43,844 bases of DNA from a virus (IMGVR_UViG_3300020005_000013:1-43844); one strand, 5' to 3'. Positions 1-43,844 are shown, counted from the first letter of the stretch. Numbers and translations: made by a program. Notes: generated from the sequence alone by a model not told the origin.

Positions 1-60
1 GCCCCAGCTCCCCGCCCGAGCTGGACGCCGCCGCATGGATCCGACCGGAGCCAGCAGCAC
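1..60. repeat. Terminal repeat, left copy
   Basis: Bases 1-52 are identical to 43785-43836. The next eight bases differ only at positions 53, 56 and 59 (A here, C at the right end). The repeat contains an inverted repeat, CCAGCTC and GAGCTGG around a 7-base loop. The simplest reading is that the window ends overlap because the genome is circular or circularly permuted. A real duplicated leader of an early gene is the alternative. Confidence 0.8.
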
Positions 61-92
61 CGACGCCCCACGCGTCGCCACGACAGGAGAAC
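61..92 (+). promoter_or_regulatory. Leader hairpin (CCCAC loop) plus GACAGGAGA ribosome site
   Basis: CGACGC and GCGTCG pair around the loop CCCAC (61-77). The strong Shine-Dalgarno block GACAGGAGA starts at 82, just upstream of the ATG at 98. The same loop with different but still complementary stems occurs before other early genes (1257, 1842, 2932, 43502), so the stem covaries while loop and ribosome site are conserved. This is probably an RNA element acting on translation or mRNA stability. Confidence 0.6.
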
Positions 93-97
93 ACCCG

Positions 98-340
98 ATG
101 ACCACCGAGCCCATCCCGACCGACGCCGATTTCGCTTACGCAGCCGACCGCCACAAATGCGCCCTCTGGTACGCGTGGGGACAGATCGACGCCGGCATCG
201 GCGGCCCCGACGTCGACCCGTTCGATTTCGCCCAGCACCACCGCGCCGAGGCACTCGCCTACCGCACCGAAGCGCGCTGCTGGCTGCCCAGCATCACCGG
301 CGCGTGGACCGCCTATCTCGCCGAGCAGGTGACGCCATGA
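98..340 (+). CDS. Small hypothetical early protein (80 aa)
   Basis: I do not recognise a family. The ATG at 98 is chosen because it follows GACAGGAGA with good spacing; an upstream in-frame ATG at 35 lies inside the terminal repeat. The product is rich in Ala, Trp and Tyr, with a single Cys pair too far apart for an obvious zinc knuckle. It is likely cytoplasmic. Its stop overlaps the next start as ATGA, so it is translationally coupled. On a circular map it follows the gene at 43542 in the same operon. Confidence 0.75.
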   Translation: MTTEPIPTDADFAYAADRHKCALWYAWGQIDAGIGGPDVDPFDFAQHHRAEALAYRTEARCWLPSITGAWTAYLAEQVTP

Positions 341-417
341 CCGCCGTCGCCATCGCCGGATTCGGCGCCTACTGCGCCGCCGCCATGTACGTACTGCGCC
401 GGATGGTCGCACGATGA
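337..417 (+). CDS. Tiny membrane peptide (26 aa)
   Basis: This 26-residue frame starts in the ATGA overlap with the preceding gene and ends in an ATGA overlap with the next. That four-base coupling at both ends is the main reason to call it. The first about 20 residues are hydrophobic and the C-terminus has several Arg, so it could be a single-pass membrane peptide with its positive end in the cytoplasm. Function unknown. Confidence 0.55.
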   Translation: MTAVAIAGFGAYCAAAMYVLRRMVAR

Positions 418-659
418 CGCAACCCCGCTTGCTCGCCGACTTCGCCGCCGTTCCCACCCCACGGGAACGGCGGCACGCCCGCGCCACCAACCGCGCCGCA
501 CAGTCGAGCATGTTCGACGACCCGAGCACGTGGGGCGATGACCCCGCGGCGTGCGACGTCTGCGGATCCACCGTTCACGTCACCGAGCGCTGCCCCCACG
601 GCACACCGCTCGCGTTGGCGCTCGACACCCACCACGACCGACAGGAGACCACGCCATGA
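414..659 (+). CDS. Small Cys-pair protein (81 aa)
   Basis: Begins with ATG overlapping the upstream TGA by four bases and ends overlapping the next ATG. The C-terminal half has CDVCG and a later CPHG, a spacing compatible with a zinc knuckle. The N-terminal third is Arg-rich. Similar short CxxC proteins occur throughout this operon. Function unknown; nucleic-acid or protein binding is only an inference from the Cys/His pattern. Confidence 0.7.
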   Translation: MTQPRLLADFAAVPTPRERRHARATNRAAQSSMFDDPSTWGDDPAACDVCGSTVHVTERCPHGTPLALALDTHHDRQETTP

Positions 660-991
660 CCACGACCCGACATCACGCCCTCTACCACTGCGCCACGTGC
701 GACACGGTGGACGACGTCGAGCACGTCGGACGCGAAGCCAATCGGCTCACCGCCAGCGACCGCGCCGCCATCGACGAACGCCTACGCGAGACGCTCGCCC
801 GCATCGCCGCCGGCAACGGTGGCCGCTACGCCCCGACATGGGCGGACGTCGAGACGTTCGCCCGCGTCATGGCGCACTCGATCGGATGCAGTCACTACGA
901 CCTACGTGTGTGCGAGATCGACGAGATCCGCGGCAGGGCATCCCGCACCGTCGGCCGCAGCTACGACCACGCCGGGCGGATCACGTCATGA
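656..991 (+). CDS. Hypothetical early protein with N-terminal CxxC (111 aa)
   Basis: ATG at 656 overlaps the upstream stop (ATGA) and is preceded at 640 by GACAGGAGA, which lies inside the previous gene. CATC near residues 12-15 and a later Cys/His-containing helix could bind a metal. The middle is predicted helical (TASDRAAIDERLRETLARI). No family recognised. Its stop overlaps the next ATG. Confidence 0.75.
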   Translation: MTTTRHHALYHCATCDTVDDVEHVGREANRLTASDRAAIDERLRETLARIAAGNGGRYAPTWADVETFARVMAHSIGCSHYDLRVCEIDEIRGRASRTVGRSYDHAGRITS

Positions 992-1200
992 TCGACACCA
1001 CGGGGTGGACCATCTGCCCGACGTGCGCCTACCCGCACGACCCCGCCACCGGATGCGACAACCCCGCATGTCCGGACAACCCGCGGCACACCCCCGAGAC
1101 GCGCGCCGCCATCGTCGAGCGCGCCGCCGCCTACCACGCCGAGCAAGCAGCCGACGCCGAACGCCGCCGGCTCTGGGGCGCATCGTTCACCCGCCGCTAA
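988..1200 (+). CDS. Small zinc-ribbon-like protein (70 aa)
   Basis: Starts in an ATGA overlap. It shows CPTC, then CDNPAC, then an Arg/Glu/Ala-rich helix. This arrangement (CxxC, about 12 residues, CxxxxC) resembles a zinc ribbon of the kind common in actinophage accessory proteins. It closes a run of five coupled genes; a noncoding leader follows before the next gene. Confidence 0.75.
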   Translation: MIDTTGWTICPTCAYPHDPATGCDNPACPDNPRHTPETRAAIVERAAAYHAEQAADAERRRLWGASFTRR

Positions 1201-1296
1201 CCCCGACCCCCTCGCCCCGGTCACGCCGGCGCCCGTTCACGACGGGAACGAGGGACCACCGCCCCACGCGGTGACCACCATCAACGACAGGAGAAC
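1201..1296 (+). promoter_or_regulatory. Structured leader: two hairpins and GACAGGAGA
   Basis: Two hairpins are visible: CCCGT/ACGGG around TCACG (1232-1246) and CACCGC/GCGGTG around CCCAC (1257-1273). GACAGGAGA starts at 1286 and the next ATG is at 1304. The leader at 1786-1881 has the same layout with compensating stem changes. No clear promoter is visible here, so this looks like a post-transcriptional element. Confidence 0.6.
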
Positions 1297-1303
1297 CCAT
1301 CCC

Positions 1304-1483
1304 ATGAGCCGCAAGCACTACATCGCCATCGCCGCGATGCTGCGCCAACACATCACCGGCGCGACCAGCACCGCCGAAGCGGTCACCGCGACCGTCATCG
1401 CCGGGAACCTCGCCGGCTACTTCGCCGAAGACAACCCGGCTTTCGACAGTGACCGCTTCCTCACCGCCTGCGGGCTGTCATGA
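1304..1483 (+). CDS. Small conserved phage protein (59 aa)
   Basis: ATG at 1304 follows GACAGGAGA; an upstream start at 1271 would read through the hairpin leader. The C-terminal half (AGNLAGYFAEDNPAFDSDRF, then LTACG) matches a pattern I associate with small proteins of many actinophages, in which an Asn-Pro-x-Phe-Asp segment ends the frame. Function unknown. It ends in an ATGA overlap with the next gene. Confidence 0.8.
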   Translation: MSRKHYIAIAAMLRQHITGATSTAEAVTATVIAGNLAGYFAEDNPAFDSDRFLTACGLS

Positions 1484-1785
1484 GCGGACCACGCAAGCCG
1501 ATCGAACCGACCCCCGAAGAGCACCGCGCCGCCATGTTCGACCACGAACGCCCGAACCCGTTGATGCCCCAAGATTGGGAGTACCAGACCGTCATGCCTG
1601 ACGGCGCGACCGTGCTCGTATCCAAGGTCGGCGGAGGGACACTCGGCCGGTACTACGCCGGCGCGTGGCACTACAACTACAGCCGACGCGATCGGCACGC
1701 CGAAGGATCCGACCTCGTGACCCCAGTCGCGCACACGCACGCCGACGCCGCATCTCTCGTCGCCGACTTCCACACCCCGGACTGA
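1480..1785 (+). CDS. Hypothetical early protein (101 aa)
   Basis: Starts in an ATGA overlap. The protein is hydrophilic with several aromatic residues and ends with a His/Ala/Asp segment. No membrane segment or recognised motif. It is followed by a second structured leader, so the operon appears built of coupled gene pairs, each with its own leader. Confidence 0.75.
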   Translation: MSGPRKPIEPTPEEHRAAMFDHERPNPLMPQDWEYQTVMPDGATVLVSKVGGGTLGRYYAGAWHYNYSRRDRHAEGSDLVTPVAHTHADAASLVADFHTPD

Positions 1786-1878
1786 CCGACCGCCTCGCCG
1801 CGCTCACGACGCCGCCGGTTCACGACCGGGACGAGGCACGACCATGCCCCACGCATGGCACCACCAGACAGGAGAACC
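1786..1878 (+). promoter_or_regulatory. Structured leader, second copy of the two-hairpin type
   Basis: CCGGT/ACCGG around TCACG (1815-1829) and CCATGC/GCATGG around CCCAC (1842-1858) are followed by GACAGGAGA at 1867 and the ATG at 1882. Both loops match those at 1237 and 1263, while stem bases differ and remain paired. Covariation of this type supports a functional RNA structure. Confidence 0.6.
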
Positions 1879-1881
1879 ACC

Positions 1882-2175
1882 ATGCCCGAGCGAATCACGC
1901 TCACCGACCTAGAACGTGCCCTTGCCGCGCACGCCGCCGCCCTCGACGCCCTCGACGTCCCCCGCGGCCCCCTCACCGTCGAGAAAGGCAACTCCAGCTA
2001 CGCCTACCCATACCGCCTCGTGATGACCGACGCCGACGGACAACGGACCCGGCCTCCGGTCGGCGCGATGGAGATCGGCCGCACCATCAGCGCGGCGTAC
2101 GCCACCCTCACCGAGCGCACCGCCATCCTCCGCGACCTCGTGGCCCTGCGCCGCGCCGGAACGTGGCGGCCATGA
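1882..2175 (+). CDS. Hypothetical early protein (97 aa)
   Basis: ATG at 1882 sits just after the GACAGGAGA block. The protein looks helix-strand-helix: an Ala/Leu-rich N-terminal helix, a central Tyr-containing strand region and a long C-terminal helix. No motif recognised. Its last codons overlap the start of the next gene (ATGA). Confidence 0.75.
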   Translation: MPERITLTDLERALAAHAAALDALDVPRGPLTVEKGNSSYAYPYRLVMTDADGQRTRPPVGAMEIGRTISAAYATLTERTAILRDLVALRRAGTWRP

Positions 2176-2357
2176 GCGCCCTGCTCCTCCTCCTCGTGTC
2201 CGTGCTCAGCGGCCATGCCCACATCGTCGAGCACGACGCCCCGACCGGCGACCTCCGGCGCGGTGACGTCCTCATCGAGCTGCACACGCCGCCGGCCCAA
2301 TGCCTCGACCGTGGCGGCCGCCCCTTCCTCAGCATGTGCATCGGGGAGGACTTCTAA
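2172..2357 (+). CDS. Small exported or membrane-anchored protein (61 aa)
   Basis: The ATG overlaps the upstream stop. The N-terminus is a Leu/Val-rich stretch of about 14 residues ending Ser-Gly-His-Ala, resembling a signal sequence. The rest is hydrophilic with two Cys (CLDRGG and SMCIG). It may be secreted or remain membrane-bound. Function unknown. Confidence 0.65.
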   Translation: MSALLLLLVSVLSGHAHIVEHDAPTGDLRRGDVLIELHTPPAQCLDRGGRPFLSMCIGEDF

Positions 2358-2390
2358 CCGGCCACCAGACGCACCACACGGGCGCCTCCC

Positions 2391-2442
2391 GGGCGCTGAC
2401 GGGTCGGCCGCACCATCACCGCGGCCGACCCGTCCAGCGCCC
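2391..2442 (+). terminator. Very stable hairpin (possible terminator or mRNA-processing site)
   Basis: A stem of about 21 pairs with a single bulged C is formed by GGGCGCTGACGGG plus its continuation and the complementary arm 2421-2442, around a 9-base loop. No U-run follows, as is usual for GC-rich actinobacterial terminators. It lies in a 148-base gap between the genes ending at 2357 and starting at 2506, so it may set different expression levels within the operon. Confidence 0.6.
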
Positions 2443-2505
2443 TACAGCGTGACCCCACGACAGACCGCAACACCACACGACAGACCACTACGATTAGGAC
2501 CCACC

Positions 2506-2715
2506 ATGAACCGCAGAGACCGCGTCGACGTCATCGACGCCATCGTCACGTTCACGCAGCCCGTGCTCGCCGAAATCCGCGCCTACCAGGCGCAGGTCGC
2601 CGCCTACCGGGCGGAAGCCCGCGCCGACATGGACCGCATGGAACGCAAGTTCACCGAACACGACCGCGACATCGCCGCGATGATGCGCCGCCTGTTCCCG
2701 GACGACGAAGCATGA
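2506..2715 (+). CDS. Small coiled-coil protein (69 aa)
   Basis: ATG at 2506 follows a weak ribosome site (TTAGGACC). This leader lacks the GACAGGAGA/CCCAC pattern of its neighbours. The product is almost entirely helical with heptad-like charged residues (AEIRAYQAQVAAYRAEARAD) and a short acidic tail, so an oligomeric coiled coil is likely. Function unknown; it overlaps the next gene by ATGA. Confidence 0.7.
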   Translation: MNRRDRVDVIDAIVTFTQPVLAEIRAYQAQVAAYRAEARADMDRMERKFTEHDRDIAAMMRRLFPDDEA

Positions 2716-2924
2716 GCACCGTCACCGCATGCGACCACTGCGGCCAGCCAATCAACGGTGGCCGCGTCGCCATCCACGTCACGGACTACTACCTCCCGAA
2801 GATGAGCGACGTCAGCGCGCCCATCCCCGAAGACCTGCACCTCCGCCTCGACCTGCACCGCGCCTGCTACGTCGAGCACCTGCTACCGCACATCACCGCC
2901 TCGATCGGCGCGCCCGACCTCTGA
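2712..2924 (+). CDS. Small CxxC protein (70 aa)
   Basis: Starts in an ATGA overlap. An N-terminal CDHCGQ and a later His-x-x-x-Cys (HRACYVEH) form a plausible Cys2-His-Cys zinc site. The pattern resembles short phage zinc-finger proteins of unknown role. Confidence 0.7.
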   Translation: MSTVTACDHCGQPINGGRVAIHVTDYYLPKMSDVSAPIPEDLHLRLDLHRACYVEHLLPHITASIGAPDL

Positions 2925-2986
2925 CCAAGTCGGGCGGCCGGAACCCCACGTCCCGACCGCCCTAACCCCGACCGCCGACAGGAGAA
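2912..2986 (+). promoter_or_regulatory. Overlapping alternative hairpins and an orphan GACAGGAGA
   Basis: GCCCGAC (2912-2918) can pair with GTCGGGC (2929-2935). Alternatively 2932-2944 can pair with 2950-2962 (11 of 13 pairs) around a CCCAC loop. The two structures share GGGC and exclude each other. The ribosome site starting at 2977 has no start codon at usable distance, unlike every other copy. It may be a relic of a lost gene or a decoy or standby site for the gene at 3034. Confidence 0.5.
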
Positions 2987-3033
2987 GGCGAACGGGGCTG
3001 CCACCCACACTACGAACGACAGGAGAACACACC

Positions 3034-3189
3034 ATGAGCGCACCAACCGTCACCGTCGAACCCACCCCCCGAGGGTTCCGCGTCGTCATCACCAGCCCGA
3101 ACGGCACCCGCACCACCGTCGGCCGCTGGACGGCCCGCTACCAAGCCAACGCCCACGCCGCCCACCTACGCACCGAGTACCAACGATGA
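3034..3189 (+). CDS. Small beta-strand-rich protein (51 aa)
   Basis: ATG at 3034 follows a second GACAGGAGA (from 3018). The sequence alternates hydrophobic and polar residues in its first half (TVTVEPTPRGFRVVITS), suggesting a small beta-sheet followed by a C-terminal Ala/His helix. No family recognised. Stop overlaps the next ATG. Confidence 0.7.
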   Translation: MSAPTVTVEPTPRGFRVVITSPNGTRTTVGRWTARYQANAHAAHLRTEYQR

Positions 3190-3413
3190 CCGGCGCGACC
3201 TTCCTCGTACTCGCCATCATCGCCATCGCCATCTACGCGATGGGCCGACATGACAGCGGCGCCTCAGCTCGCCCATGCCGACATTGCGGCCACCTCAACG
3301 GCGCCCACCGCGCCCCCCTCGACCAGTCGAAAACCCACGACGGACACGGCTACTGCTACCCGTGCCGCACCTGCTACGAGAACGCCGCCACGCACCGAGC
3401 AGGCCTGTCGTGA
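3186..3413 (+). CDS. Membrane-anchored zinc-ribbon-like protein (75 aa)
   Basis: Starts in an ATGA overlap. Residues about 5-20 form a hydrophobic segment (FLVLAIIAIAIYAM). This is followed by CRHCG and CYPCRTC, which together look like a four-Cys zinc ribbon on the cytoplasmic side. Function unknown; the combination of one membrane helix and a zinc ribbon is unusual at this size. Confidence 0.7.
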   Translation: MTGATFLVLAIIAIAIYAMGRHDSGASARPCRHCGHLNGAHRAPLDQSKTHDGHGYCYPCRTCYENAATHRAGLS

Positions 3414-3553
3414 TCGGGTACCTCATCGCCATCGGCGTACTCGCCATCGGCGCCCTGTCGTTCGGCTACAACTACCGCAAGAGCCGCGCCGAGCGCACCG
3501 CGTGGCTCGAACACGACCGCCAGATCCGCCGGGACCGAGGCGAAGATGTCTGA
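3410..3553 (+). CDS. Small single-pass membrane protein (47 aa)
   Basis: GTG start overlaps the upstream TGA (GTGA). The first about 20 residues are hydrophobic (IGYLIAIGVLAIGALSFGY), followed by a basic, highly charged helix. The topology suggests a cytoplasmic C-terminus. Coupled to the recombinase gene, whose ATG lies eight bases before this stop. Confidence 0.65.
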   Translation: MIGYLIAIGVLAIGALSFGYNYRKSRAERTAWLEHDRQIRRDRGEDV

Positions 3554-4274
3554 CCTCGACCTGTTCACCGGCGCAACGGGGCTCTCGACGCGGGCTCCAG
3601 CGATCGGCTACCTGCGGGTGTCGACCGAAGCGCAGCTTGACGGCATGGGCCTCGACATCCAACGTGACGCCGTCATCGCCCTCGCCGCCGTCGAGAACCT
3701 CGACCTCGACGGGACGTTCACCGACGAAGGGATCTCCGGATCGGAAGGCCTCGACGGACGGACCGGCCTCGCCGCCGCCCTCGACTGGCTCGCCGACCAC
3801 CCCGGCTCCACGCTGATCATCCCGCGCCTCGACCGGTTGGCCCGCGACCTGATGGTTCAGGAGTCGGTGCTCGCTGACGTGTGGAAGACCGACGCCACCG
3901 TCCTGTCATGCTCGGAGACCGAGCGCACGTACTGCCGGCCGGACTCACCCGACGACCCGGCACGCACGCTCATCCGCCAGGTGCTCGGCGCCGTCGCCGC
4001 CTACGAACGGGCGATGATCCGACTGCGCATGACCCGCGGCCGCCGTCGCCTCCTCGATGCCCAAGGATGGGCCGGCGGACCGCAACCGTACGGTTGGGCC
4101 TGCCCTGATGAGCGCGCCGTGCTCGTCCACGTCGGAGCACGGCGCAGCTCGGGCGCATCCTGGCAGTCGATCGCCACCGAACTCAACGCCGGCGGCCGCC
4201 ACAAGCGCAACGGCCGACCGTGGGCACCGCAAGAGCTACAACGGACCCACGCCCGCGCCCTCGCCCGCCAATAG
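3546..4274 (+). CDS. Serine recombinase (resolvase/invertase family)
   Basis: Residues about 18-30 read IGYLRVSTEAQ, the conserved N-terminal strand with the nucleophilic Ser of the resolvase family. IIPRLDRLARD (the arm with catalytic Arg) and the YERAMIRLRMTRGR helix follow. The C-terminal about 80 residues resemble the start of a recombinase domain (GGPQPYGW and IATELNAGG). At 242 residues it is longer than a classical resolvase but far shorter than large serine integrases. It is the last gene of the early operon. Because the phage also encodes a tyrosine integrase, this enzyme may resolve multimers or invert or exchange DNA rather than integrate the phage. Confidence 0.9.
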   Translation: MSDLDLFTGATGLSTRAPAIGYLRVSTEAQLDGMGLDIQRDAVIALAAVENLDLDGTFTDEGISGSEGLDGRTGLAAALDWLADHPGSTLIIPRLDRLARDLMVQESVLADVWKTDATVLSCSETERTYCRPDSPDDPARTLIRQVLGAVAAYERAMIRLRMTRGRRRLLDAQGWAGGPQPYGWACPDERAVLVHVGARRSSGASWQSIATELNAGGRHKRNGRPWAPQELQRTHARALARQ

Positions 4275-4306
4275 CGTTCATCCTCGAAGCCTCCGCCCGC
4301 TTCAGC

Positions 4307-4356
4307 AACGGCCCGGCCGTCGACAGCACCCCTGCTATTGACGGATCCGGGCCGTT
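4307..4356. terminator. Long hairpin between convergent operons
   Basis: AACGGCCCGG (4307-4316) pairs perfectly with CCGGGCCGTT (4347-4356). The inner sequences extend the stem imperfectly to a CCCC loop, giving about 20 pairs. It lies in the gap 4275-4413 between the + strand recombinase stop and the - strand gene ending at 4414, so it can act as a terminator in both directions. Confidence 0.65.
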
Positions 4357-4413
4357 CGCCGTTGCCCCTGGCCGCGCGTCCCCAACCCGCTGCGGCACTG
4401 GCTGTCCGCTCTT

Positions 4414-4929
4414 CTAGTCGACGACGTAGTACCGCGTGTTGTGCGGACCCTGTCGCTCCACATGCACCCTCGGCCGAATGCCCGACCGCTGGCACGCCAC
4501 GAGATAGGCGCGCAGCCGGTTCCCGATCGTCTGACCCTGCCTGACCCTCGGCGCCGCCGGCAGCAACGCCTTTCCGATCTCCGATGGGCGAGACCCTGGA
4601 TGCTCACGCAGATAGTCGAAGATGTCGTCGACCGTCACCCGGTACGTGCCCGACGGCTTCCGCCCCCGCCTCGAAGGTGGCGCTGATGGCAGCTCGTGAG
4701 GGACGTGCGGTCCTGCCACCAGCGCCGGCTGGCGGGATGCCCCTTTCTTGTGCCCGTTGTAGCCAGCCTCGTGCAACAGTCCGAACCCGAGCGCCACCAT
4801 CGCGCTGGCGTCACCACCGAAACCGGGTCCCGGCTTGATGATGGCGACCTCTTCAATCTCGTCGGACTCATCATCGGCGAGGTAATACCGAAGCTTGCCG
4901 TCGGCGAATGTAGATGCGAGCTGCTTCAT
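4414..4929 (-). CDS. Winged-helix-like phage protein (171 aa)
   Basis: Last gene of the left - strand operon. The N-terminal half is mixed and acidic. The C-terminal half (VTVDDIFDYLREHPGSRPSE, helices, then a basic segment ending YYVVD) looks like a winged helix-turn-helix fold, so DNA binding is plausible. It starts in an ATGA overlap with the gene at 4926. Position after RuvC and RecT suggests a role in DNA metabolism, but no family is recognised. Confidence 0.7.
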   Translation of the reverse strand: MKQLASTFADGKLRYYLADDESDEIEEVAIIKPGPGFGGDASAMVALGFGLLHEAGYNGHKKGASRQPALVAGPHVPHELPSAPPSRRGRKPSGTYRVTVDDIFDYLREHPGSRPSEIGKALLPAAPRVRQGQTIGNRLRAYLVACQRSGIRPRVHVERQGPHNTRYYVVD

Positions 4930-5297
4930 GCCCGCTTCCTCTGGCGCGGCGCCGGCGCCTCTTCATCGAACAAGGTGACGACGAGACGTTGCCGCCATTC
5001 GAGTTTCGTCGGGGCGGGCTCATCGTCGACACTCGACTTCTTGTGGCAGTAGCCATCGGCGTAGCGGTAGCGGTTCACGACCTCGCCGGAATGCGCGTAC
5101 CACTGGATCCGATCACTAGTGCAGCTCGTGCAATTCGAGCGCAAGCCAACGCATCTCGTCATCGCATACGGGGCTCGCAGTCCCGGCTCCGCCTGAAGCG
5201 GATCGACCTTCCCCTGTTCGTGATGCCATTGGTGACCTGCCGAGTGGCAGATCTCGAATGCTCGCTGAAGCGTGGCTACCGGCTGAACGAGACTCAT
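4926..5297 (-). CDS. Cys/His-rich conserved phage protein (123 aa)
   Basis: The start at 5297 is chosen because its ATG overlaps the RuvC stop (ATGA); an upstream start at 5336 would add 13 basic residues. Residues about 15-75 contain C-x3-H-x3-H and CVGLRSNCTSC, followed by Arg and Trp, then RYRYADGYCHK. This cysteine-rich block suggests a zinc-binding domain of a type common in actinophage DNA-metabolism operons. Function unknown. Confidence 0.75.
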   Translation of the reverse strand: MSLVQPVATLQRAFEICHSAGHQWHHEQGKVDPLQAEPGLRAPYAMTRCVGLRSNCTSCTSDRIQWYAHSGEVVNRYRYADGYCHKKSSVDDEPAPTKLEWRQRLVVTLFDEEAPAPRQRKRA

Positions 5298-5821
5298 CGT
5301 CCGAGCCCCTCCCTTGCGTCGTGGTCGTTGCGCCATGTCGCTGATTGTTGCACACTGTCGTGGTTCGTGGTGACCTTACGCTGCCAGGCAACAGCGATCA
5401 GCGCCGCCTCCGCCCGACCGGTGTCCTTCACCCGAGCGAACAGATCACGATGTTGCGGCCACAACCTTGCCGCGGCCGCACGCCCCGACGCCTTGTCTTT
5501 CGACACCCCCATCAGGCGCTTCCACACGTGCGGAGGGATCGACACCGCTGCCACCCCGAGCGCGGCGACAATCCCCTCGACTGTCCCGAGCGCCCGCCCG
5601 AACGTGAACATCGAACGCACACCCTGCCCTGGCATCGAATGCACCGCCTCGATCACCACCAGATCCGGCGACCACGACGACAGCAAATCGACCAGCGCTC
5701 CGGCCATCACCACCCCGTCAGCCGAGTCGATGTCGCCCACGGCCAACAACGTGCAGCGCTCGCCGTCGATCATGCCGAGCGCACCACTCAACCCGGGATC
5801 GACACCGACAATCCGAGTCAC
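5294..5821 (-). CDS. RuvC-like Holliday junction resolvase
   Basis: GTG start overlaps the RecT stop (GTGA). The RNase-H-like fold shows its acidic residues in order: IVGVDPGLSGALG (first Asp), VVIEAVHSMPGQGV (Glu) and a C-terminal DTGRAEAALIAVAW (Asp), with the basic DKASGRAAAA helix between. At 175 residues the length fits the family. It would cleave branched recombination or replication intermediates before packaging. Neighbouring recT and exonuclease genes support this. The 3' end contains four abutting 10-bp repeats (see 5321-5360). Confidence 0.88.
   Translation of the reverse strand: MTRIVGVDPGLSGALGMIDGERCTLLAVGDIDSADGVVMAGALVDLLSSWSPDLVVIEAVHSMPGQGVRSMFTFGRALGTVEGIVAALGVAAVSIPPHVWKRLMGVSKDKASGRAAAARLWPQHRDLFARVKDTGRAEAALIAVAWQRKVTTNHDSVQQSATWRNDHDAREGLGR
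5321..5360 (-). repeat. Four 10-bp-phased CGACA/CAACA repeats inside ruvC
   Basis: Read on the - strand, four abutting ten-mers begin CGACA, CAACA, CGACA and CAACG. The same alternating pattern occurs beside attP (13606-13645) and at the early promoter (43454-43473). It is coding here, so chance or codon constraint cannot be excluded. Confidence 0.4.
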
Positions 5822-6870
5822 TCCTCCGACGGCTCCAGGCTGTCTTGGTAGTCGATCACCTTGCCGGCCTCGTCGACGTTCAACTGGTTGTGCGTCAGGA
5901 TGTCCCGCCCGATCACCGCCGACGACGTGCGGAGCTGCTCGTAACGGTCGTAGCCCATGCGCTCATACACCGCCTTGATCAAGCCGACCTGGCCGCGTGA
6001 CGCCGGCCGGACCTCATCGCCCGCACCCTCAGTACCACCCTCTATTTCGTCGCGACGAAATTCCTCCAGGTCAGGCTCGGGGTCAGGCACCGTCCCCTCG
6101 TGCTCGGCGAGCAACACTTCCTCTTCGACCATCGCCCGGAACACGTCACGCAGACGTGGCAGCTCGGTGTCGAGCACGGGGTCGTCGAGCTGGTGATCGG
6201 GGAACGCACGCGCCATCACCGCCGACGGGTCGAGACCGTGCTGCTCGCAGGCCTCGACGAACTTAGACATCGCCTCAGCGCCGAGCGCCACCGGTTCGGC
6301 CGGCCCGTGGTCGATCGGTCCGATGTCGATGACCTCGCCGTTCTCGTCGATGTCGGCGCCCAGCTCCTCGACCGACATCAGCCCGAGCGTCACGTCGGAG
6401 AAGTGGACGCGGCACAGGATCCCGATCGCCCGCCACCAGCACATCATCTGCGGGTAGTTCTTCCAGGTCTGCTTGTTCGCCAGCCCAGCGCGGCGAGCAT
6501 CCTCGACCGTGAACGTGATCGACATCTCGGTCCCGTCATCGGCGCGCTTGCCGAGCACCGTCGCACCCTCCGCCGTCATCGTGCCGGTCACCGAGTGCCC
6601 GGCACGCCGCACCAACCCGAGCTGCGCCTCCGGGCGCAGACCCCACGTCCCCTCGATCACGTGCCCATTGCGCATCGACGTGATCACGTCCCAGCCATGC
6701 GTCCGACCGGACAACGCGGCGACGACGATGTTCGCCGGCTTGCGGCGGTAGTCGCGCGGCACGATGTCTGACTGCGCGAGGTACTCGGCCTGGTTGGTCA
6801 TCAGCAGCCACTCGTTCGGCGGCACCACCGACGACGGCGCACGATGCGGCGCAACCACCAGATCGGTCAT
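5818..6870 (-). CDS. recT: RecT-family single-strand annealing protein
   Basis: The N-terminal two thirds carry the RecT-family signature. One stretch reads YLAQSDIVPRDYRRKP and VVAALSGRTHGWDVI. A later stretch reads ANKQTWKNYPQMMCWWRAIG, then HFSDVTLGLMSVEE. The protein would bind and anneal single strands produced by the YqaJ-type exonuclease at 8743-9648, forming a Red-like recombination system. The C-terminal about 100 residues are acidic, then more basic. It starts in an ATGA overlap with the holin-like gene. The two halves of the recombination pair are separated by the lysis genes. Confidence 0.88.
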   Translation of the reverse strand: MTDLVVAPHRAPSSVVPPNEWLLMTNQAEYLAQSDIVPRDYRRKPANIVVAALSGRTHGWDVITSMRNGHVIEGTWGLRPEAQLGLVRRAGHSVTGTMTAEGATVLGKRADDGTEMSITFTVEDARRAGLANKQTWKNYPQMMCWWRAIGILCRVHFSDVTLGLMSVEELGADIDENGEVIDIGPIDHGPAEPVALGAEAMSKFVEACEQHGLDPSAVMARAFPDHQLDDPVLDTELPRLRDVFRAMVEEEVLLAEHEGTVPDPEPDLEEFRRDEIEGGTEGAGDEVRPASRGQVGLIKAVYERMGYDRYEQLRTSSAVIGRDILTHNQLNVDEAGKVIDYQDSLEPSEE

Positions 6871-7145
6871 TGCGGCGGAGCCTCCTGCTCCTGCTGCGCC
6901 ATGCGCTGGCTGCGCTCACCGGCGCGGTAGCCGAGATAGCCGCCGAGCACGCCGATAATCCCGCCGAACACGGAGACGAGGATCTGCGTGGCGTTCTCAC
7001 TCAACCCGGGGTCCTCCCCCAGGATCGCGTCGTAGAGCACCGCGAACGTGATCGTGTTCACCGCGGTGACCAACCCGAACGCGAGAACGAGCGCGACCCA
7101 GTCCTTGCCATGGGCTTCTACCGGTTGACCCAGCGGGCGGGGCAT
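6867..7145 (-). CDS. Holin-like membrane protein (92 aa)
   Basis: Two hydrophobic segments are visible, about residues 16-42 (VALVLAFGLVTAVNTITFAV) and 55-76 (ILVSVFGGIIGVLGGYLGY). They are followed by a charged Gln/Glu-rich tail with Arg. Size, two-helix topology and position just downstream of an amidase endolysin match phage holins, which form membrane lesions to release the endolysin. Holins have little sequence conservation, so the call rests on context. Confidence 0.65.
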   Translation of the reverse strand: MPRPLGQPVEAHGKDWVALVLAFGLVTAVNTITFAVLYDAILGEDPGLSENATQILVSVFGGIIGVLGGYLGYRAGERSQRMAQQEQEAPPQ

Positions 7146-7147
7146 CG

Positions 7148-7282
7148 CTACGAGCCTCCATCAGGTGGCGGCTCCGGCTTCGGCGGCAGCCGCGCGTCGA
7201 GACGGCGTTCCCACACCATGTACACGACGCCGCCAATGATGAAGAACAGGATGGCGGCGATGATGATGACAGCGATCCACAT
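7148..7282 (-). CDS. Tiny membrane protein of the lysis cassette (44 aa)
   Basis: Starts ATG at 7282. The first about 24 residues are strongly hydrophobic (MWIAVIIIAAILFFIIGGVV), then WERR and a Pro-rich cytoplasmic tail. It lies between endolysin and the two-helix holin-like gene, so it may be a second holin, an antiholin or another lysis regulator. The call is from membrane topology and location only. Confidence 0.6.
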   Translation of the reverse strand: MWIAVIIIAAILFFIIGGVVYMVWERRLDARLPPKPEPPPDGGS

Positions 7283-7314
7283 CAGCGCTCAGCGCTCGCT
7301 CGGCGCTTCGACGA

Positions 7315-8169
7315 TCACGACGCGTGCTCCAGCCGCTCTAGGCGGGTGATGATGTCGTTCAGCTTCGAGTCGATCGGCCCGCTGATGTATGACCAGTTCC
7401 ATGCCGCGGCCCATGGCAGGTTGAGGTTCGCCCCGCCGGGGTCGGTGAACTGGCCGGGCGCGCCGATCCGTTGCGTGCAGTACTGCCACAGCTCGGCGAG
7501 CTGGCGGGCCTGGTCGTCAGTCATGTCTGGCACCTCCGGGGTGTCGGTCGTCGTCGCGCGGCGTAGGCATTCGGCGCGCATGTCGTCGAGATTCCACGTG
7601 CCCGAGCTGTTGCACGAGCGCGGCTTCCACGGCCCCTGCACGGCGTCGGCGGTGGCTGGGTCGACCTTGCGGCTGGTGTAGTGGGCGTGCCCGACGATGT
7701 CGGCGGCGAGGTTGCCGAGGTAGGTGTTGATCGCGTTGGACCAGGCGAAGTAGGCGTCGATCAGCTTGGTCGACCACGGCTCGCCGACGCCGTTGTTGTT
7801 GACCTCGGTATTGACGAGCGTGGTGTTTCCGCCGTCAGTCGGACAGGTACCGCGGCTGAACTTCGTCGGGCCGCCCTTTCCCGAGCAGTTCGAGGCACCA
7901 CCGGCGATCGGCCAGGCGTCGCCGTTGCGGCCGAGCGTGAGGTTGCCGACCGGGTTGTCCGGGTTGCCGCGCACTTGGTAGTTGACACAGGCCTCGTCGG
8001 ACATGCTCGTCGAGCTGGCGGCGTGATGCCACATGTGTCCCAACGGGACTGCCGAGAATCCGCCGCTGGAGCGGGCGCGCCGTTCCCACCCGGCGTTAGT
8101 GGAGGTGACCTTGACGACGAGCCCGGCGTCGCTGGCGATGTCGGCGAGCGGGAGATAGATGCTGCCCAT
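7315..8169 (-). CDS. Endolysin, N-acetylmuramoyl-L-alanine amidase
   Basis: The amidase (PGRP-like, Amidase_2 type) domain spans about residues 10-200. Candidate zinc ligands and active-site residues are GHMWHHAAS near residue 45, then VGHAHYTSRKVDPA near 185 (His, Lys, Asp). It cleaves the bond between N-acetylmuramic acid and the peptide stem of peptidoglycan. There is no signal peptide, so export needs the nearby holin. The last about 65 residues are a Trp/Gln-rich segment and a short coiled coil, with no recognisable cell-wall binding repeat. Start at 8169 overlaps the upstream stop (TGATG). Confidence 0.88.
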   Translation of the reverse strand: MGSIYLPLADIASDAGLVVKVTSTNAGWERRARSSGGFSAVPLGHMWHHAASSTSMSDEACVNYQVRGNPDNPVGNLTLGRNGDAWPIAGGASNCSGKGGPTKFSRGTCPTDGGNTTLVNTEVNNNGVGEPWSTKLIDAYFAWSNAINTYLGNLAADIVGHAHYTSRKVDPATADAVQGPWKPRSCNSSGTWNLDDMRAECLRRATTTDTPEVPDMTDDQARQLAELWQYCTQRIGAPGQFTDPGGANLNLPWAAAWNWSYISGPIDSKLNDIITRLERLEHAS

Positions 8170-11770: not shown

Positions 11771-11806
11771 CCGGCCGAACCTAGTGCCCTACGCAGCAGG
11801 GTGCAA
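11768..11806 (-). promoter_or_regulatory. Leaderless promoter of the - strand early operon
   Basis: -35 TTGCAC (11806-11801), spacer 17, -10 TAGGTT (11783-11778), then seven bases and the GTG start. The spacer contains one GTGCCCTA (11784-11791, read on +), so a protein bound there would block RNA polymerase. This is the best promoter match in the window. Confidence 0.7.
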
Positions 11807-23289: not shown

Positions 23290-25092
23290 CTACAGCTCGA
23301 ACTGGAGGAGGAGTCGGCGGACGTTGGACGGGATCCCGGCGACGCGCAGCTTCTCGTTGATCGCCTGCTCGGTGGGCTGGTCGCCTTCGTCTTCGATCTC
23401 GGCGATCGCGTTGTCCAAGGCGGGGATGGCCTGCGCGTAGGCCGGGTCTTGGAGCGCTTGGAGGATCTGGGACGGCGTGCCGTAACTCGAATCAGGGACC
23501 CGGCCCTTCTGCTGGAGGATGATCTGGCGGGCGGCATCCTCGTTCTGCTGGGCGCGAGCCGTCTCCGCCGTGGTCTGAGCCGTCTCGGCCGCTGTGCCGG
23601 CCTTGGCCTCTTGGGCGGCCATTGATTCGGCGAGGGCGCGGTCACGTTCGTCGGCGGTGATCTCGTCGGCGGCCGTCGGCTGGCCGGCGAGTTCGCGGCT
23701 GGCGTCGTAGGCCGACATGCCCTGAGTGCCGAGGGCGCCGTAGATGTCGGCGTCGGTGATGTCGTAGCCCTGGTCCTGCATCCGTCCGGCGGCGAGGATC
23801 TGGGCTTGGCGCATGACGTCGGCGGCGTAGGGGTCGGTGCCGAGAACGGGTTGGCCGCTGTAGGCGCCGGTGCCGGTCTGATAGGGGGCGCCCATGAGCA
23901 TCCGTTCGACGGACGTCCCGGAGCTGAAGCGGCCCGGCGCGTTCTGCACCGCCCACTGGGCGAGCGGATCCATGCCGCCGAGCTGGGTCGGGGTGACCCA
24001 GCCGTACTGCGACGTGTACTGCTGGCGAATCTGGTTCATCGCCTCGCCGTAGCCGACGTCGGCCTGCTCGCGGATCGCCTTCAAGGGCCGAGCGGATTGG
24101 GCGATGCGCTGCTGGAGTGCCGCGATCTGCTGCGCTGCGGCCTGCGCTCCGGTGTTGGCGGCGGCCTGCTGTTGGGGGGCGGTGGGGACCGCCGGCGGCG
24201 GTGTCGGCAGCATGAACTGGCTGGAGACGCCACGGCCGGGGCGGATCGTCACCTGCGGGATCGGCGGCGGCGGCGGCGCCGCAGCGGCGGCAGCAGCGGT
24301 GCGCTGGGATTCCTGGACCGCCTTGCCGGTGTAGGCGGCGGCCATCGTGTCCCAGTAGGAACGCCCGGCGAGCGCCGCGGCCTCCGGCGTGTTCTGCGCC
24401 ACGGTCCGTTTCGCCCCGGCGGCGACCTGGCCAAGTTGGGCTCGGAAGGCGTTCTCGGATTGCGCCTGTTCGACCTGTTGCGAGGCGCCCTGGATGTCGG
24501 CGGTGGCCTGCTGGGTGAGCGCCGACCGGAGCTGGGTCTGGTTGATCGGCTCACCCTTCGATGCCTTGCCGCTGCCCTTCTTGGCGGCGGCGGCTTTGGC
24601 GGCGGCGATCTCGGCGGCCTGCGCGGCGGCGGCCATGCGGGCCATCTGGAGCTGTAGGTCGGCGTTGATGCCGGCGACGTTCTGCTCTCCGCGCACCTGT
24701 TCCTGGCGGACGTCGTACTCACCGCGGGCCCGGATCGGAGCGACCTGCTGCTCGACTTGCTGGGGGATGTAGGAGCGGGCGGCCTGCGTCGCCGCGTTGT
24801 AGTCGGCGAGCCGCCGATCCCGTGCCGACAGGTCGGCTTGGTAGGCGGCGCCGGACTGGGTGAGCGAGGCGATGCGCTGGTCGTAGGGGCCGGTGATCTG
24901 GCCTTGTACCGACTGCGCGGCGCCGGCCGGGGCGCCGCGCAGTGCGGCTTCCTGCATCGCTGACTGCACCGCGGTCTGTCGTTGCTGTTGCATCGAGGCG
25001 ATGGCGGCGTTGTAGGCGTCGACGCCGGCCTGGCCGGCTTTGGCTTGGGCGGCGAGGAGGGCGGGATCGACGGTCGGGATCGGCTCGGCCAT
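23290..25092 (-). CDS. Gln/Ala-rich internal virion protein (600 aa)
   Basis: Rich in Ala and Gln, with long predicted coiled-coil stretches (residues about 100-180 and 480-570) and Pro-rich linkers such as AAAAPPPPPIPQ. It starts where the preceding transglycosylase gene stops (TAATG overlap) and ends three bases before the giant virion gene. Composition and place resemble the smaller ejection proteins of P22-like phages. No catalytic motif seen. Confidence 0.65.
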   Translation of the reverse strand: MAEPIPTVDPALLAAQAKAGQAGVDAYNAAIASMQQQRQTAVQSAMQEAALRGAPAGAAQSVQGQITGPYDQRIASLTQSGAAYQADLSARDRRLADYNAATQAARSYIPQQVEQQVAPIRARGEYDVRQEQVRGEQNVAGINADLQLQMARMAAAAQAAEIAAAKAAAAKKGSGKASKGEPINQTQLRSALTQQATADIQGASQQVEQAQSENAFRAQLGQVAAGAKRTVAQNTPEAAALAGRSYWDTMAAAYTGKAVQESQRTAAAAAAAPPPPPIPQVTIRPGRGVSSQFMLPTPPPAVPTAPQQQAAANTGAQAAAQQIAALQQRIAQSARPLKAIREQADVGYGEAMNQIRQQYTSQYGWVTPTQLGGMDPLAQWAVQNAPGRFSSGTSVERMLMGAPYQTGTGAYSGQPVLGTDPYAADVMRQAQILAAGRMQDQGYDITDADIYGALGTQGMSAYDASRELAGQPTAADEITADERDRALAESMAAQEAKAGTAAETAQTTAETARAQQNEDAARQIILQQKGRVPDSSYGTPSQILQALQDPAYAQAIPALDNAIAEIEDEGDQPTEQAINEKLRVAGIPSNVRRLLLQFEL

Positions 25093-27031: not shown

Positions 27032-28545
27032 CAGGCACGCTCCGTGCGGACGTCGCAGAGGGCGACGACTTCGCGCAGCGCCACGCCGGCGATCCGTTGG
27101 AAGTCGATCTGGAACCCGTTGCCGTAGCCCTGCTCACCGATGTTGACCCGCCACGAGTCGTCGGTGCCGTCGGTCGACGCCCGCTCGCATGGCTCGACCC
27201 ACGGCTGGCTGTTGCCGAGTTCGAGCCCGCCGCCGTAGCGACCGAGGGCGTTGACCCGGACCCACATCTCGTTCTTGGCGGTCGGGATCCCGGACGCCCA
27301 TTTGCGGAACTGGATGATCAGGGTGCGGACCCGTACCTGACGCCCGATCGGCTCCCAATAGGTCGGGAACGTGACGGCGCCGGCGACGAGATCGGGGAGC
27401 CCGGCGTCGGTCGGCGCGGCGTACTGGTCGTCGAGGTGACCGGGGCGGTCCAGGTCGTGGTGGTAGGAGCCGATGACGACGGGCTCGCCGACGATCGTCG
27501 GGGCCTGCACGCTGTAGATGACGTCGGCCGGCATCTGGGAGCCGTCGATGACGTCGACGGGGACGAGGCCGGCCAACTTCTGTGGGAAAAGATGCCTGGT
27601 CCACGCCGAACTCGACCAGGTCAAGATCTGGGTGCCGGCGGTGGTGTCGTTGGCGAGGATGAGACGCCGCGCCGTCGGCGTGACGATGACGGTGTCGCAG
27701 GTGAACGGCGACGAGCGATGCTCCACCTGCTGTTCGGATTCGATGCTCACGCGTTCACCGTTGAACCAGGCCGGGCGCGGCTCGACGGGCCAGTACAGGA
27801 TCCGGTTGTCGGTGGTCGCGGCGGTGAGGCGGGGGTCGGTGGGGCCGAGGCCGAGGGCGACGCCGCGCACCGAGGCCAACGTCCCGAGGACACCGGACAC
27901 GGCGTTCCAGCCGGTGCGCTTGCCGACGTAGAGGGTGTTGAAGATCGGGTTGAGCGCGGTGATCGGTTCGCTGTTGCCGACGTCGAGGTAGTTGTTGGCC
28001 GGCCACGAATCGAAGTTGGAGCCGGAGGCCGTGACATCGCTGAACCAGATCCGCCACGGTGTGGTGACGTCGACGGCGACGAACCAGTACCCCCAACGCA
28101 CCATGTAGGAGAAGTCGGCCGGGGTGGTGACGAGCGTCGTCGACGCCGGGCTGGCGTGCTTGTAGAGCTTGCCGCCCATCAGCGAGTAGTTGATGCCGTT
28201 GCCGACGAGGAACTTGATCGGCGAGGTCGGCGTCGTCGCCGGCGGCGGATACCCCGTCCACGCGACAGCGGCGCCGCCGGCGTTGGGGACCTGGTACGGC
28301 TTGTCCAACACGACGATGAGAGCGCCGGACGGCATCGACCAGAACCCGGCCGGTCCGGGCACCAGGTTGTGGCCGGGCAGCCCGGTGACGTTGAGCCGTT
28401 TCAGTCCGGCCCGTACGCCGAGCAGCCGCGAGTTGTAGGGCAGGACGTTGGTGCCGCTGAACTGGTCGGCGTCGGCCTTCGACGGGTCGCGGATCCCGAA
28501 GTCGCCGCCTTTCCAGTCGCCGTAGCGCAACGTGAAGTCGGCCAC
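27031..28545 (-). CDS. P22 gp10-like tail hub/stabilisation protein (504 aa)
   Basis: A beta-rich protein of about the length of P22 gp10, with repeated blade-like units and a start (LRYGDWKGGDFGIRDPSKAD) typical of such proteins in actinophage podoviruses. It follows the head-tail adaptor as gp10 follows gp4 in P22-like phages. It would form the hub that keeps packaged DNA inside and connects spikes. GTG start. The assignment is from order, length and fold type, not from a distinct catalytic motif. Confidence 0.65.
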   Translation of the reverse strand: MADFTLRYGDWKGGDFGIRDPSKADADQFSGTNVLPYNSRLLGVRAGLKRLNVTGLPGHNLVPGPAGFWSMPSGALIVVLDKPYQVPNAGGAAVAWTGYPPPATTPTSPIKFLVGNGINYSLMGGKLYKHASPASTTLVTTPADFSYMVRWGYWFVAVDVTTPWRIWFSDVTASGSNFDSWPANNYLDVGNSEPITALNPIFNTLYVGKRTGWNAVSGVLGTLASVRGVALGLGPTDPRLTAATTDNRILYWPVEPRPAWFNGERVSIESEQQVEHRSSPFTCDTVIVTPTARRLILANDTTAGTQILTWSSSAWTRHLFPQKLAGLVPVDVIDGSQMPADVIYSVQAPTIVGEPVVIGSYHHDLDRPGHLDDQYAAPTDAGLPDLVAGAVTFPTYWEPIGRQVRVRTLIIQFRKWASGIPTAKNEMWVRVNALGRYGGGLELGNSQPWVEPCERASTDGTDDSWRVNIGEQGYGNGFQIDFQRIAGVALREVVALCDVRTERA

Positions 28546-43450: not shown

Positions 43451-43490
43451 GTGCCCTATGTTGCGTTCTGTCGCATCCGGATGATAGGGT
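43451..43490 (+). promoter_or_regulatory. Early + strand promoter with operator
   Basis: -35 TTGCGT (43461-43466), spacer 18, -10 TAGGGT (43485-43490). GTGCCCTA (43451-43458) abuts the -35, and the - strand reads two phased units CGACA and CAACA at 43454-43473. The 26 bases 43451-43476 match 13623-13648 (opposite strand) at 22 positions. It should drive 43542 and, on a circle, the genes from 98 onward. Confidence 0.6.
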
Positions 43491-43501
43491 CCCCCGTGAC
43501 C

Positions 43502-43535
43502 GCCGGCCCCACGCCGGCTCCCACCAGACAGGAGA
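43502..43535 (+). promoter_or_regulatory. Leader hairpin (CCCAC loop) and GACAGGAGA of gene 43542
   Basis: GCCGGC and GCCGGC pair around CCCAC (43502-43518). GACAGGAGA starts at 43527, and the ATG is at 43542. This is the first copy of the leader element in the operon, about 12 bases after the predicted transcription start. Confidence 0.6.
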
Positions 43536-43541
43536 CATCCC

Positions 43542-43769
43542 ATGCTCGTTTCGTCGAAGCCAGCCCGTGACCTCGTTCCGGGCGACGTCATCGGCGCGTC
43601 CGATCACGGCCGCATCGTCACCGAGGTTCGCCAAGGCCAGCACTGGCCGGAGGGTCCGGGGACGTTCGTCCGTTGGTTCCGCCGCAGCAACGACGGCACC
43701 CCCCTCGCCACCGAGACGACGTTCTACGACATCGCCGCCGTCGTCTGCGTCGACGTCGACCCCCACTGA
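43542..43769 (+). CDS. Small SH3/Hint-like early protein (75 aa)
   Basis: ATG at 43542 follows GACAGGAGA. The start PARDLVPGDVIGASDHGRIV resembles the entry strand of Hint-like or small beta-barrel proteins, with later strands (TFVRWFRRSN; ETTFYDIAAVVCVDVD). Without catalytic residues it is only a fold guess. It is the first gene of the early operon when the genome is closed. Confidence 0.7.
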   Translation: MLVSSKPARDLVPGDVIGASDHGRIVTEVRQGQHWPEGPGTFVRWFRRSNDGTPLATETTFYDIAAVVCVDVDPH

Positions 43770-43784
43770 GCGGCCCTACCGCCG

Positions 43785-43844
43785 GCCCCAGCTCCCCGCC
43801 CGAGCTGGACGCCGCCGCATGGATCCGACCGGAGCCCGCCGCCC
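43785..43844. repeat. Terminal repeat, right copy
   Basis: The last 60 bases match bases 1-60 except for three A-to-C changes spaced three bases apart near the end (43837, 43840, 43843). The spacing and end position suggest a contig-overlap artefact or allelic difference at the join of a circular genome, but a genuine terminal repeat is possible. Confidence 0.8.

Follow-up and report, generated by a model that had tools for sequence, protein, structure and literature searches.

How do several genes in one phage operon come to be preceded by hairpins that keep an identical loop while their stems differ, and what might read that loop? The phage in question is known solely from environmental DNA, and the window, by which we mean the whole stretch of DNA analysed, is its 43,844-base IMG/VR virus record, encoding a P22-like portal, a terminase, a tyrosine integrase and a serine recombinase. 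Among isolated phages, Arthrobacter phages come closest by portal, at about 22%; a DNA search of isolated phages with window positions 1-8000 gave no match, and a terminase search of genome contigs found no close prophage. Bases 1-52 recur as a direct repeat near the right end (43785-43836), which may mark the end of a circular or permuted molecule or be a genuine repeat; because the final eight bases fall outside the repeat and do not match, circularity or permutation is not proven. A longer identical repeat of both ends, inside the same operon, is present in the relative 3300037153_000943 (G004). Judged by gene order, the rightward early operon continues from the right end to base 1 of the window, beginning near 43,460 and running to the serine recombinase at 3546-4274.

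The sequence leads us to favor, with moderate confidence, the view that the early leaders are start-associated RNA hairpins whose loop is read by a trans-acting factor, for operon-wide post-transcriptional and probably translational control.

Leader hairpins and their ribosome block

The CCCAC hairpins are as follows.

43502-43518, + strand: hairpin GCCGGC-CCCAC-GCCGGC, leader of the first early gene
61-77, + strand: hairpin CGACGC-CCCAC-GCGTCG, perfect 6-bp stem
1257-1273, + strand: hairpin CACCGC-CCCAC-GCGGTG, perfect 6-bp stem
1842-1858, + strand: hairpin CCATGC-CCCAC-GCATGG, perfect 6-bp stem
2932-2962, + strand: imperfect CCCAC hairpin, 13-pair stem with two mismatches (A.C and C.A)

An earlier note on this DNA had described at least five leaders with differing stems around an identical CCCAC loop, and the four perfect copies (61, 1257, 1842 and 43502) together with the imperfect one at 2932 bear this out. 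As it also described, the block GACAGGAGA lies 4-12 bases past each perfect stem (4 nt at 61, 12 nt at 1257, 8 nt at both 1842 and 43502) and is followed by a start codon, an ATG in 4/4 cases, and the 2932 copy has its block at +14 with no ATG, GTG or TTG after it. The invariant core of the perfect copies is nine nucleotides long (GC-CCCAC-GC), and variation is confined to the outer four pairs. The pairs that close the stem on the loop are AC/GT at 2932-2962 and at the matching 27118 hairpin of a relative introduced below, and GC/GC in all the others.

Bare CCCAC hairpins are unremarkable in number (CCCAC gives 4 in 70 occurrences, and CGCCG on the minus strand gives 5 in 473). What lies beyond chance is the joint occurrence of loop, stem, ribosome block and start rather than the raw hairpin count: CCCAC, stem, GACAGGAGA and start come together four times in the window, versus a maximum of two for any 5-nt loop among 200 Markov sequences matched in composition. 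A covariance model trained on the four perfect window leaders recovered, beyond the leaders, just the bare blocks at 640 and 3018 at E<0.01 and one weak match at E=0.05, and thus had no convincing window match outside leaders and ribosome blocks. Together, the Markov maximum and the covariance search argue against the arrangement recurring at similar frequency in shuffled sequence or coding regions, the outcome that the earlier note had named as refuting it. No CCCAC hairpin of the leader kind was found elsewhere in the window, and Rfam gave neither a match at the gathering score nor a relevant weak one.

The block itself is present in seven exact copies, all on the + strand (82, 640, 1286, 1867, 2977, 3018 and 43527), where 0.39 are expected and seven were reached in 0/100 shuffles. 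All seven lie on the coding strand of the rightward early operon, in agreement with the first description, and six precede starts:

43527-43535, + strand: GACAGGAGA block serving ORF 43542-43769 (75 aa)
82-90, + strand: GACAGGAGA block serving ORF 98-340
640-648, + strand: GACAGGAGA block serving ORF 656-991, within the end of ORF 414-659, with no true CCCAC hairpin
1286-1294, + strand: GACAGGAGA block serving ORF 1304-1483
1867-1875, + strand: GACAGGAGA block serving ORF 1882-2175
3018-3026, + strand: GACAGGAGA block serving ORF 3034-3189, with no CCCAC hairpin directly 5'

Since the starts at 640 and 3018 have no adjoining CCCAC hairpin, the hairpin is dispensable for use of the block.

Several further candidates were set aside. 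A weaker copy had been proposed at 591-603, ahead of the 640 block, and this part of the earlier description fails: the site lies within ORF 414-659, codes the conserved C-P-H-G of a zinc-ribbon-like protein and is conserved with that protein, and the homologue, which has CGCAC as its leader loop, retains CCCAC there, so that the site is no copy of the element. Positions 444-469 are likewise coding sequence in ORF 414-659, the relative having C-rich or CCCAC loops at the 444-469 and 591-603 sites and CGCAC in its leaders. The perfect 11-bp hairpin at 444-469 is retained in that relative (L247), and coding constraint may explain it. In IMG/VR, the pattern CCCAC...GACAGGAGA brought up, among the matches listed, one other CCCAC hairpin of at least 5 bp before AGGAG (L084, 5 bp), from a sequence with no sign of relationship to the window. 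A tighter pattern gave 22 matches and one long stem (L242), a GCGCGC run in a phage head-gene region with no other leaders, which we take as chance. Homologue searches with ORF 98 and ORF 1304 returned nothing, or remote homologues without such leaders.

Covariation and a relative with a different loop

Relatives were found by IMG/VR scans with the portal and the recombinase. The nearest one with the early operon, 3300043680_000012 (G001; recombinase 72% and portal 76% at the amino acid level), has three CGCAC-loop hairpins, at 24210, 25922 and 27118, each followed by AGGAGACGC and ATG, and AGGAGACGC occurs in its genome at these three sites exclusively. Each has a counterpart by operon position: 43502 and 24210 both lie 5' of the operon's first gene; 1257 and 25922 both lie 5' of the gene preceding an MSGPR-type ORF (window 1480, G001 26518); and 2932-2962 (2945) and 27118 are both the leader of a small gene upstream of the recombinase. 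At every matched position the loop carries the same C/G substitution and the stem is altered too. Stems of at least 5 bp were found neither on CGCAC in the window nor on CCCAC in G001. The search of related phages with a covariance model, which the earlier note had advised, matched the four window leaders to the first G001 leader at E=4e-5. The first gene products of the two phages show no detectable similarity and do not align; a search for solved relatives of this product gave none of note, and no candidate loop-binding factor was identified.

Statistically, the pairing is well supported. Across eight hairpins from the two phages, 5/6 pairs show changes on both sides and 94% pairing is kept, the set having been partly chosen for having stems, which biases the percentage paired and the double changes less. 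The double-change cells number 15 versus 5.3 in shuffles (0/500 shuffles), and the covariation score is 0.845, where shuffles give 0.224 and slid controls 0.179 at most, figures to be read with the fact that there are just four perfect copies and that some covarying pairs may reflect shared descent. The compensating stem changes reported earlier are therefore strong, with the qualification that the two loop-proximal pairs (GC...GC) are invariant among the four perfect copies.

Might the leaders instead be a recently duplicated module whose hairpin has no regulatory role? Leaders 1201-1306 and 1786-1884 are alike over about 100 nt, both upstream hairpins included, as would be expected of duplication. 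Neutral decay, however, would not retain pairing in 15 double-changed cells, nor would it alter the loop in parallel at three matched positions, and we regard this explanation as highly improbable. The structures shared by the two leaders include predicted junctions:

1209-1254, + strand: predicted three-way junction CCCUCG/CGAGGG with two UCACG-loop hairpins, directly 5' of the 1257 CCCAC hairpin
1792-1837, + strand: the predicted three-way junction again, a UCACG-loop hairpin differing from the first copy by a C-G to G-C swap

Selection seems to hold the loop on a stem near the ribosome site, and a loop that is constant in one phage and altered in parallel in its relative is the pattern that a single reader would be expected to give.

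The fixed-loop form was not seen in more distant relatives, and a further IMG/VR scan with a recombinase alignment brought no additional close member. In G004, one of the more distant phages, the leader hairpins are different ones, and two starts use a block particular to this phage, GGAGACTTCAC. Its first early gene is seemingly leaderless, the ATG and a GACTTCACAC motif lying in a hairpin loop (L264 3499-3560, that is, G004 43499-43560); the same motif also forms part of the G004 ribosome block.

One putative promoter and the layout of the operon

Do the leaders act in DNA or in RNA? A putative early promoter stands ahead of all of them:

43461-43490, + strand: putative early promoter TTGC-N20-TAGGGT, predicted transcript start about 10 nt before the first hairpin

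This is the sole + strand match to TTGC-N19/20-TARGKT in the window, and the pattern precedes the first early gene once each in the window, G001 and G004. The internal leaders lack it and therefore probably act on RNA from the first promoter, although other promoter types are conceivable; no sigma-70-like promoter match was found near the leaders. A second window copy of the pattern lies on the minus strand (11778-11806), facing left, before a small HTH/excisionase-like frame whose GTG sits in a hairpin loop (TTCGGCC...GGCCGAA).

Genes from ORF 98 to the recombinase either overlap their predecessor by 4-8 bases or follow a gap of 96-148 nt. A leader or block occupies 3/4 of these gaps and also the stretch before ORF 98 (4/5 gaps overall), and ORF 656 overlaps its predecessor yet uses the block at 640. 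In the fourth gap, 2358-2505, the ribosome site is a different one and a very stable hairpin (z = -6.3) is present. That hairpin (2391-2442, before ORF 2506) has arms of 21-22 nt and the loop ACCATCACC and is not followed by a T-run; strong hairpins lie at comparable places in the relatives.

The earlier note had pointed to the start-associated sequences (SAS) of cluster K mycobacteriophages and their extended form (ESAS) as an analogue. SAS are 13-bp sequences, GGGATAGGAGCCC, with at most two mismatches, located 3-9 bp before starts; they form a conserved AGGAG-centred block at non-structural gene starts, mostly in larger intergenic gaps, with bases conserved beyond ribosome pairing (PMC3203893). 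The window block is likewise repeated, conserved, AGGAG-centred and placed at non-structural gene starts, so that this half of the analogy is sound, although its sequence is GACAGGAGA rather than GGGATAGGAGCCC and its flanks differ from GGG...CCC. The other half does not carry over. ESAS are 17-bp imperfect inverted repeats with a half-site consensus just 5' of about half of the SAS; Pope et al. 2011 concluded that deviations in the arms lend no support to RNA pairing (PMC3203893), and the ESAS of phage Adephagia include putative SigA-like promoters (PMC11373665). The 6-bp arms of the window, in contrast, have no consensus beyond the two loop-proximal pairs; they covary, the stem being free while pairing and loop are kept, and the early-promoter pattern is found just before the first leader, with no sigma-70-like promoter near any.

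An inverted repeat acting at the DNA level, as an operator or promoter of the kind proposed for ESAS, would share with the leaders a position 5' of the ribosome block (PMC3203893, PMC11373665). A DNA reader needs conserved half-sites, whereas here the outer half-sites vary freely and just the pairing is retained; moreover, the early-promoter pattern is missing at the internal leaders and the leader orientation is invariably the same. Such a DNA element has, in our estimate, very little probability.

Start-associated motifs 5' of the ribosome site also occur in other actinobacteriophages, namely the SAS/ESAS-like motifs of Microbacterium cluster EF and the 18-bp inverted repeats of cluster EG; as far as the available text of that report goes, these are fixed sequences (GGGAAAGGACCCC; GATCAACCNNGGTTGATC), and a fixed loop with a covarying stem is not described there (PMC7302621). 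A search of open-access literature with few term combinations gave no description of the present leader type, and such absence is no proof of novelty.

How the loop might be read

Folding prediction has the stem formed at 96-100% and the loop exposed at 96-100%, with block accessibility at 0.53-0.67 whether the hairpin is allowed or forbidden. A self-acting switch that hides the ribosome site is therefore unlikely, and was rejected on this ground; an exposed loop beside a block of unaltered accessibility is as expected for a binding handle. The same insensitivity would also suit an RNA processing or stabilizing element, in which the hairpin marks a cut site or shields 5' ends so that modules of the early transcript decay independently, and so would the location of the hairpins at module borders and the retention of pairing while stem sequence changes. 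Plain end protection, however, needs neither an identical loop per phage nor another identical one in the relative, and we consider this explanation rather unlikely.

In the mechanism that we propose instead, each leader would be built of three parts: a hairpin whose loop is particular to the phage (CCCAC here, CGCAC in the nearest relative), then a short spacer rich in C and A, then an extended Shine-Dalgarno block. Transcription from one promoter would give a long early transcript carrying leaders or blocks in its gene gaps, and nearly all other genes, with their stop-start overlaps, would not require separate ribosome sites. The loop could then be the handle by which one trans-acting factor recognizes the leaders. 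An RNA-binding protein of the phage is the likeliest candidate, although a host factor or RNase might also be the reader; acting on all leaders jointly, the factor would set ribosome entry (or message survival) operon-wide. The earlier proposal of an RNA element with operon-wide translation control thus stands as to a start-linked RNA element, on the strength of the covariation, the same-strand placement, the confinement of such hairpins to the leaders within the window, the relative with another fixed loop and the single recognizable promoter; the translational control we infer.

Among the systems compared, the closest working analogue appears to be the translational operator of T4 gene 43 (PMC3014915), where a hairpin in the leader lies 5' of the ribosome site, relatives conserve its loop, and a phage protein reads the loop and represses translation. 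The window hairpins resemble it in position and in their conserved loop; they differ in that several leaders occur in one operon here, where the T4 operator serves a single autoregulated gene.

A second comparison is with boxB of lambdoid phages. That hairpin is likewise short, has a loop of five nucleotides and is recognized in a phage-specific way; it works on transcription and is not attached to ribosome sites. Could the leaders, too, be antitermination sites, whose loop is recognized on the nascent RNA by a protein that modifies RNA polymerase? The short stem, the 5-nt phage-specific loop and the single early promoter are all compatible with this, but antitermination needs neither the constant 4-12 nt distance to the ribosome block nor repetition at successive gene starts, and it strikes us as distinctly improbable.

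A bolder form of the preferred loop-reading model, which we put forward tentatively and hold to be possible rather than probable, is that the early operon is an RNA regulon: one phage-encoded protein would read the loop, and loop code and reader would have changed jointly, the code shifting in unison across all leaders. Lambdoid phages show a comparable divergence in boxB and N, although here it would concern ribosome entry. Since 2011 actinobacteriophages have been known to carry start-associated sequences, whose function is unclear; a lineage in which the upstream element is plainly a hairpin in RNA, its fixed loop differing in parallel between relatives, makes the question testable, and would be a simple natural example of post-transcriptional control exerted by a phage on many genes together.

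Ribosome blocks within hairpin loops

One block copy sits inside a hairpin of its own:

2966-2997, + strand: hairpin CCCCG-AC-CGCC-GACAGGAGAA-GGCG-AA-CGGGG, the block is in the loop, with no start codon following; two relatives share the arrangement

All three phages have a copy of their own block in a hairpin loop 5' of the small gene that precedes the recombinase (window 2966-2997, G001 about 27137-27172, G004 about 770-822), and in the window and G004 no usual start codon follows. Were the regulon reading true, these blocks in hairpin loops, most of which lack a start codon, might serve for titration or sensing. A CTG lies 12 nt past the 2977 block of the window, in frame with ORF 3034 (2998-3034), and is conceivably a non-standard upstream start of that ORF. 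The G001 hairpin opens an 8-codon frame, MPRRYASH, whose stop TAG falls in the next ribosome site (L271 7137-7177, that is, G001 27137-27177), and which is possibly a leader peptide.
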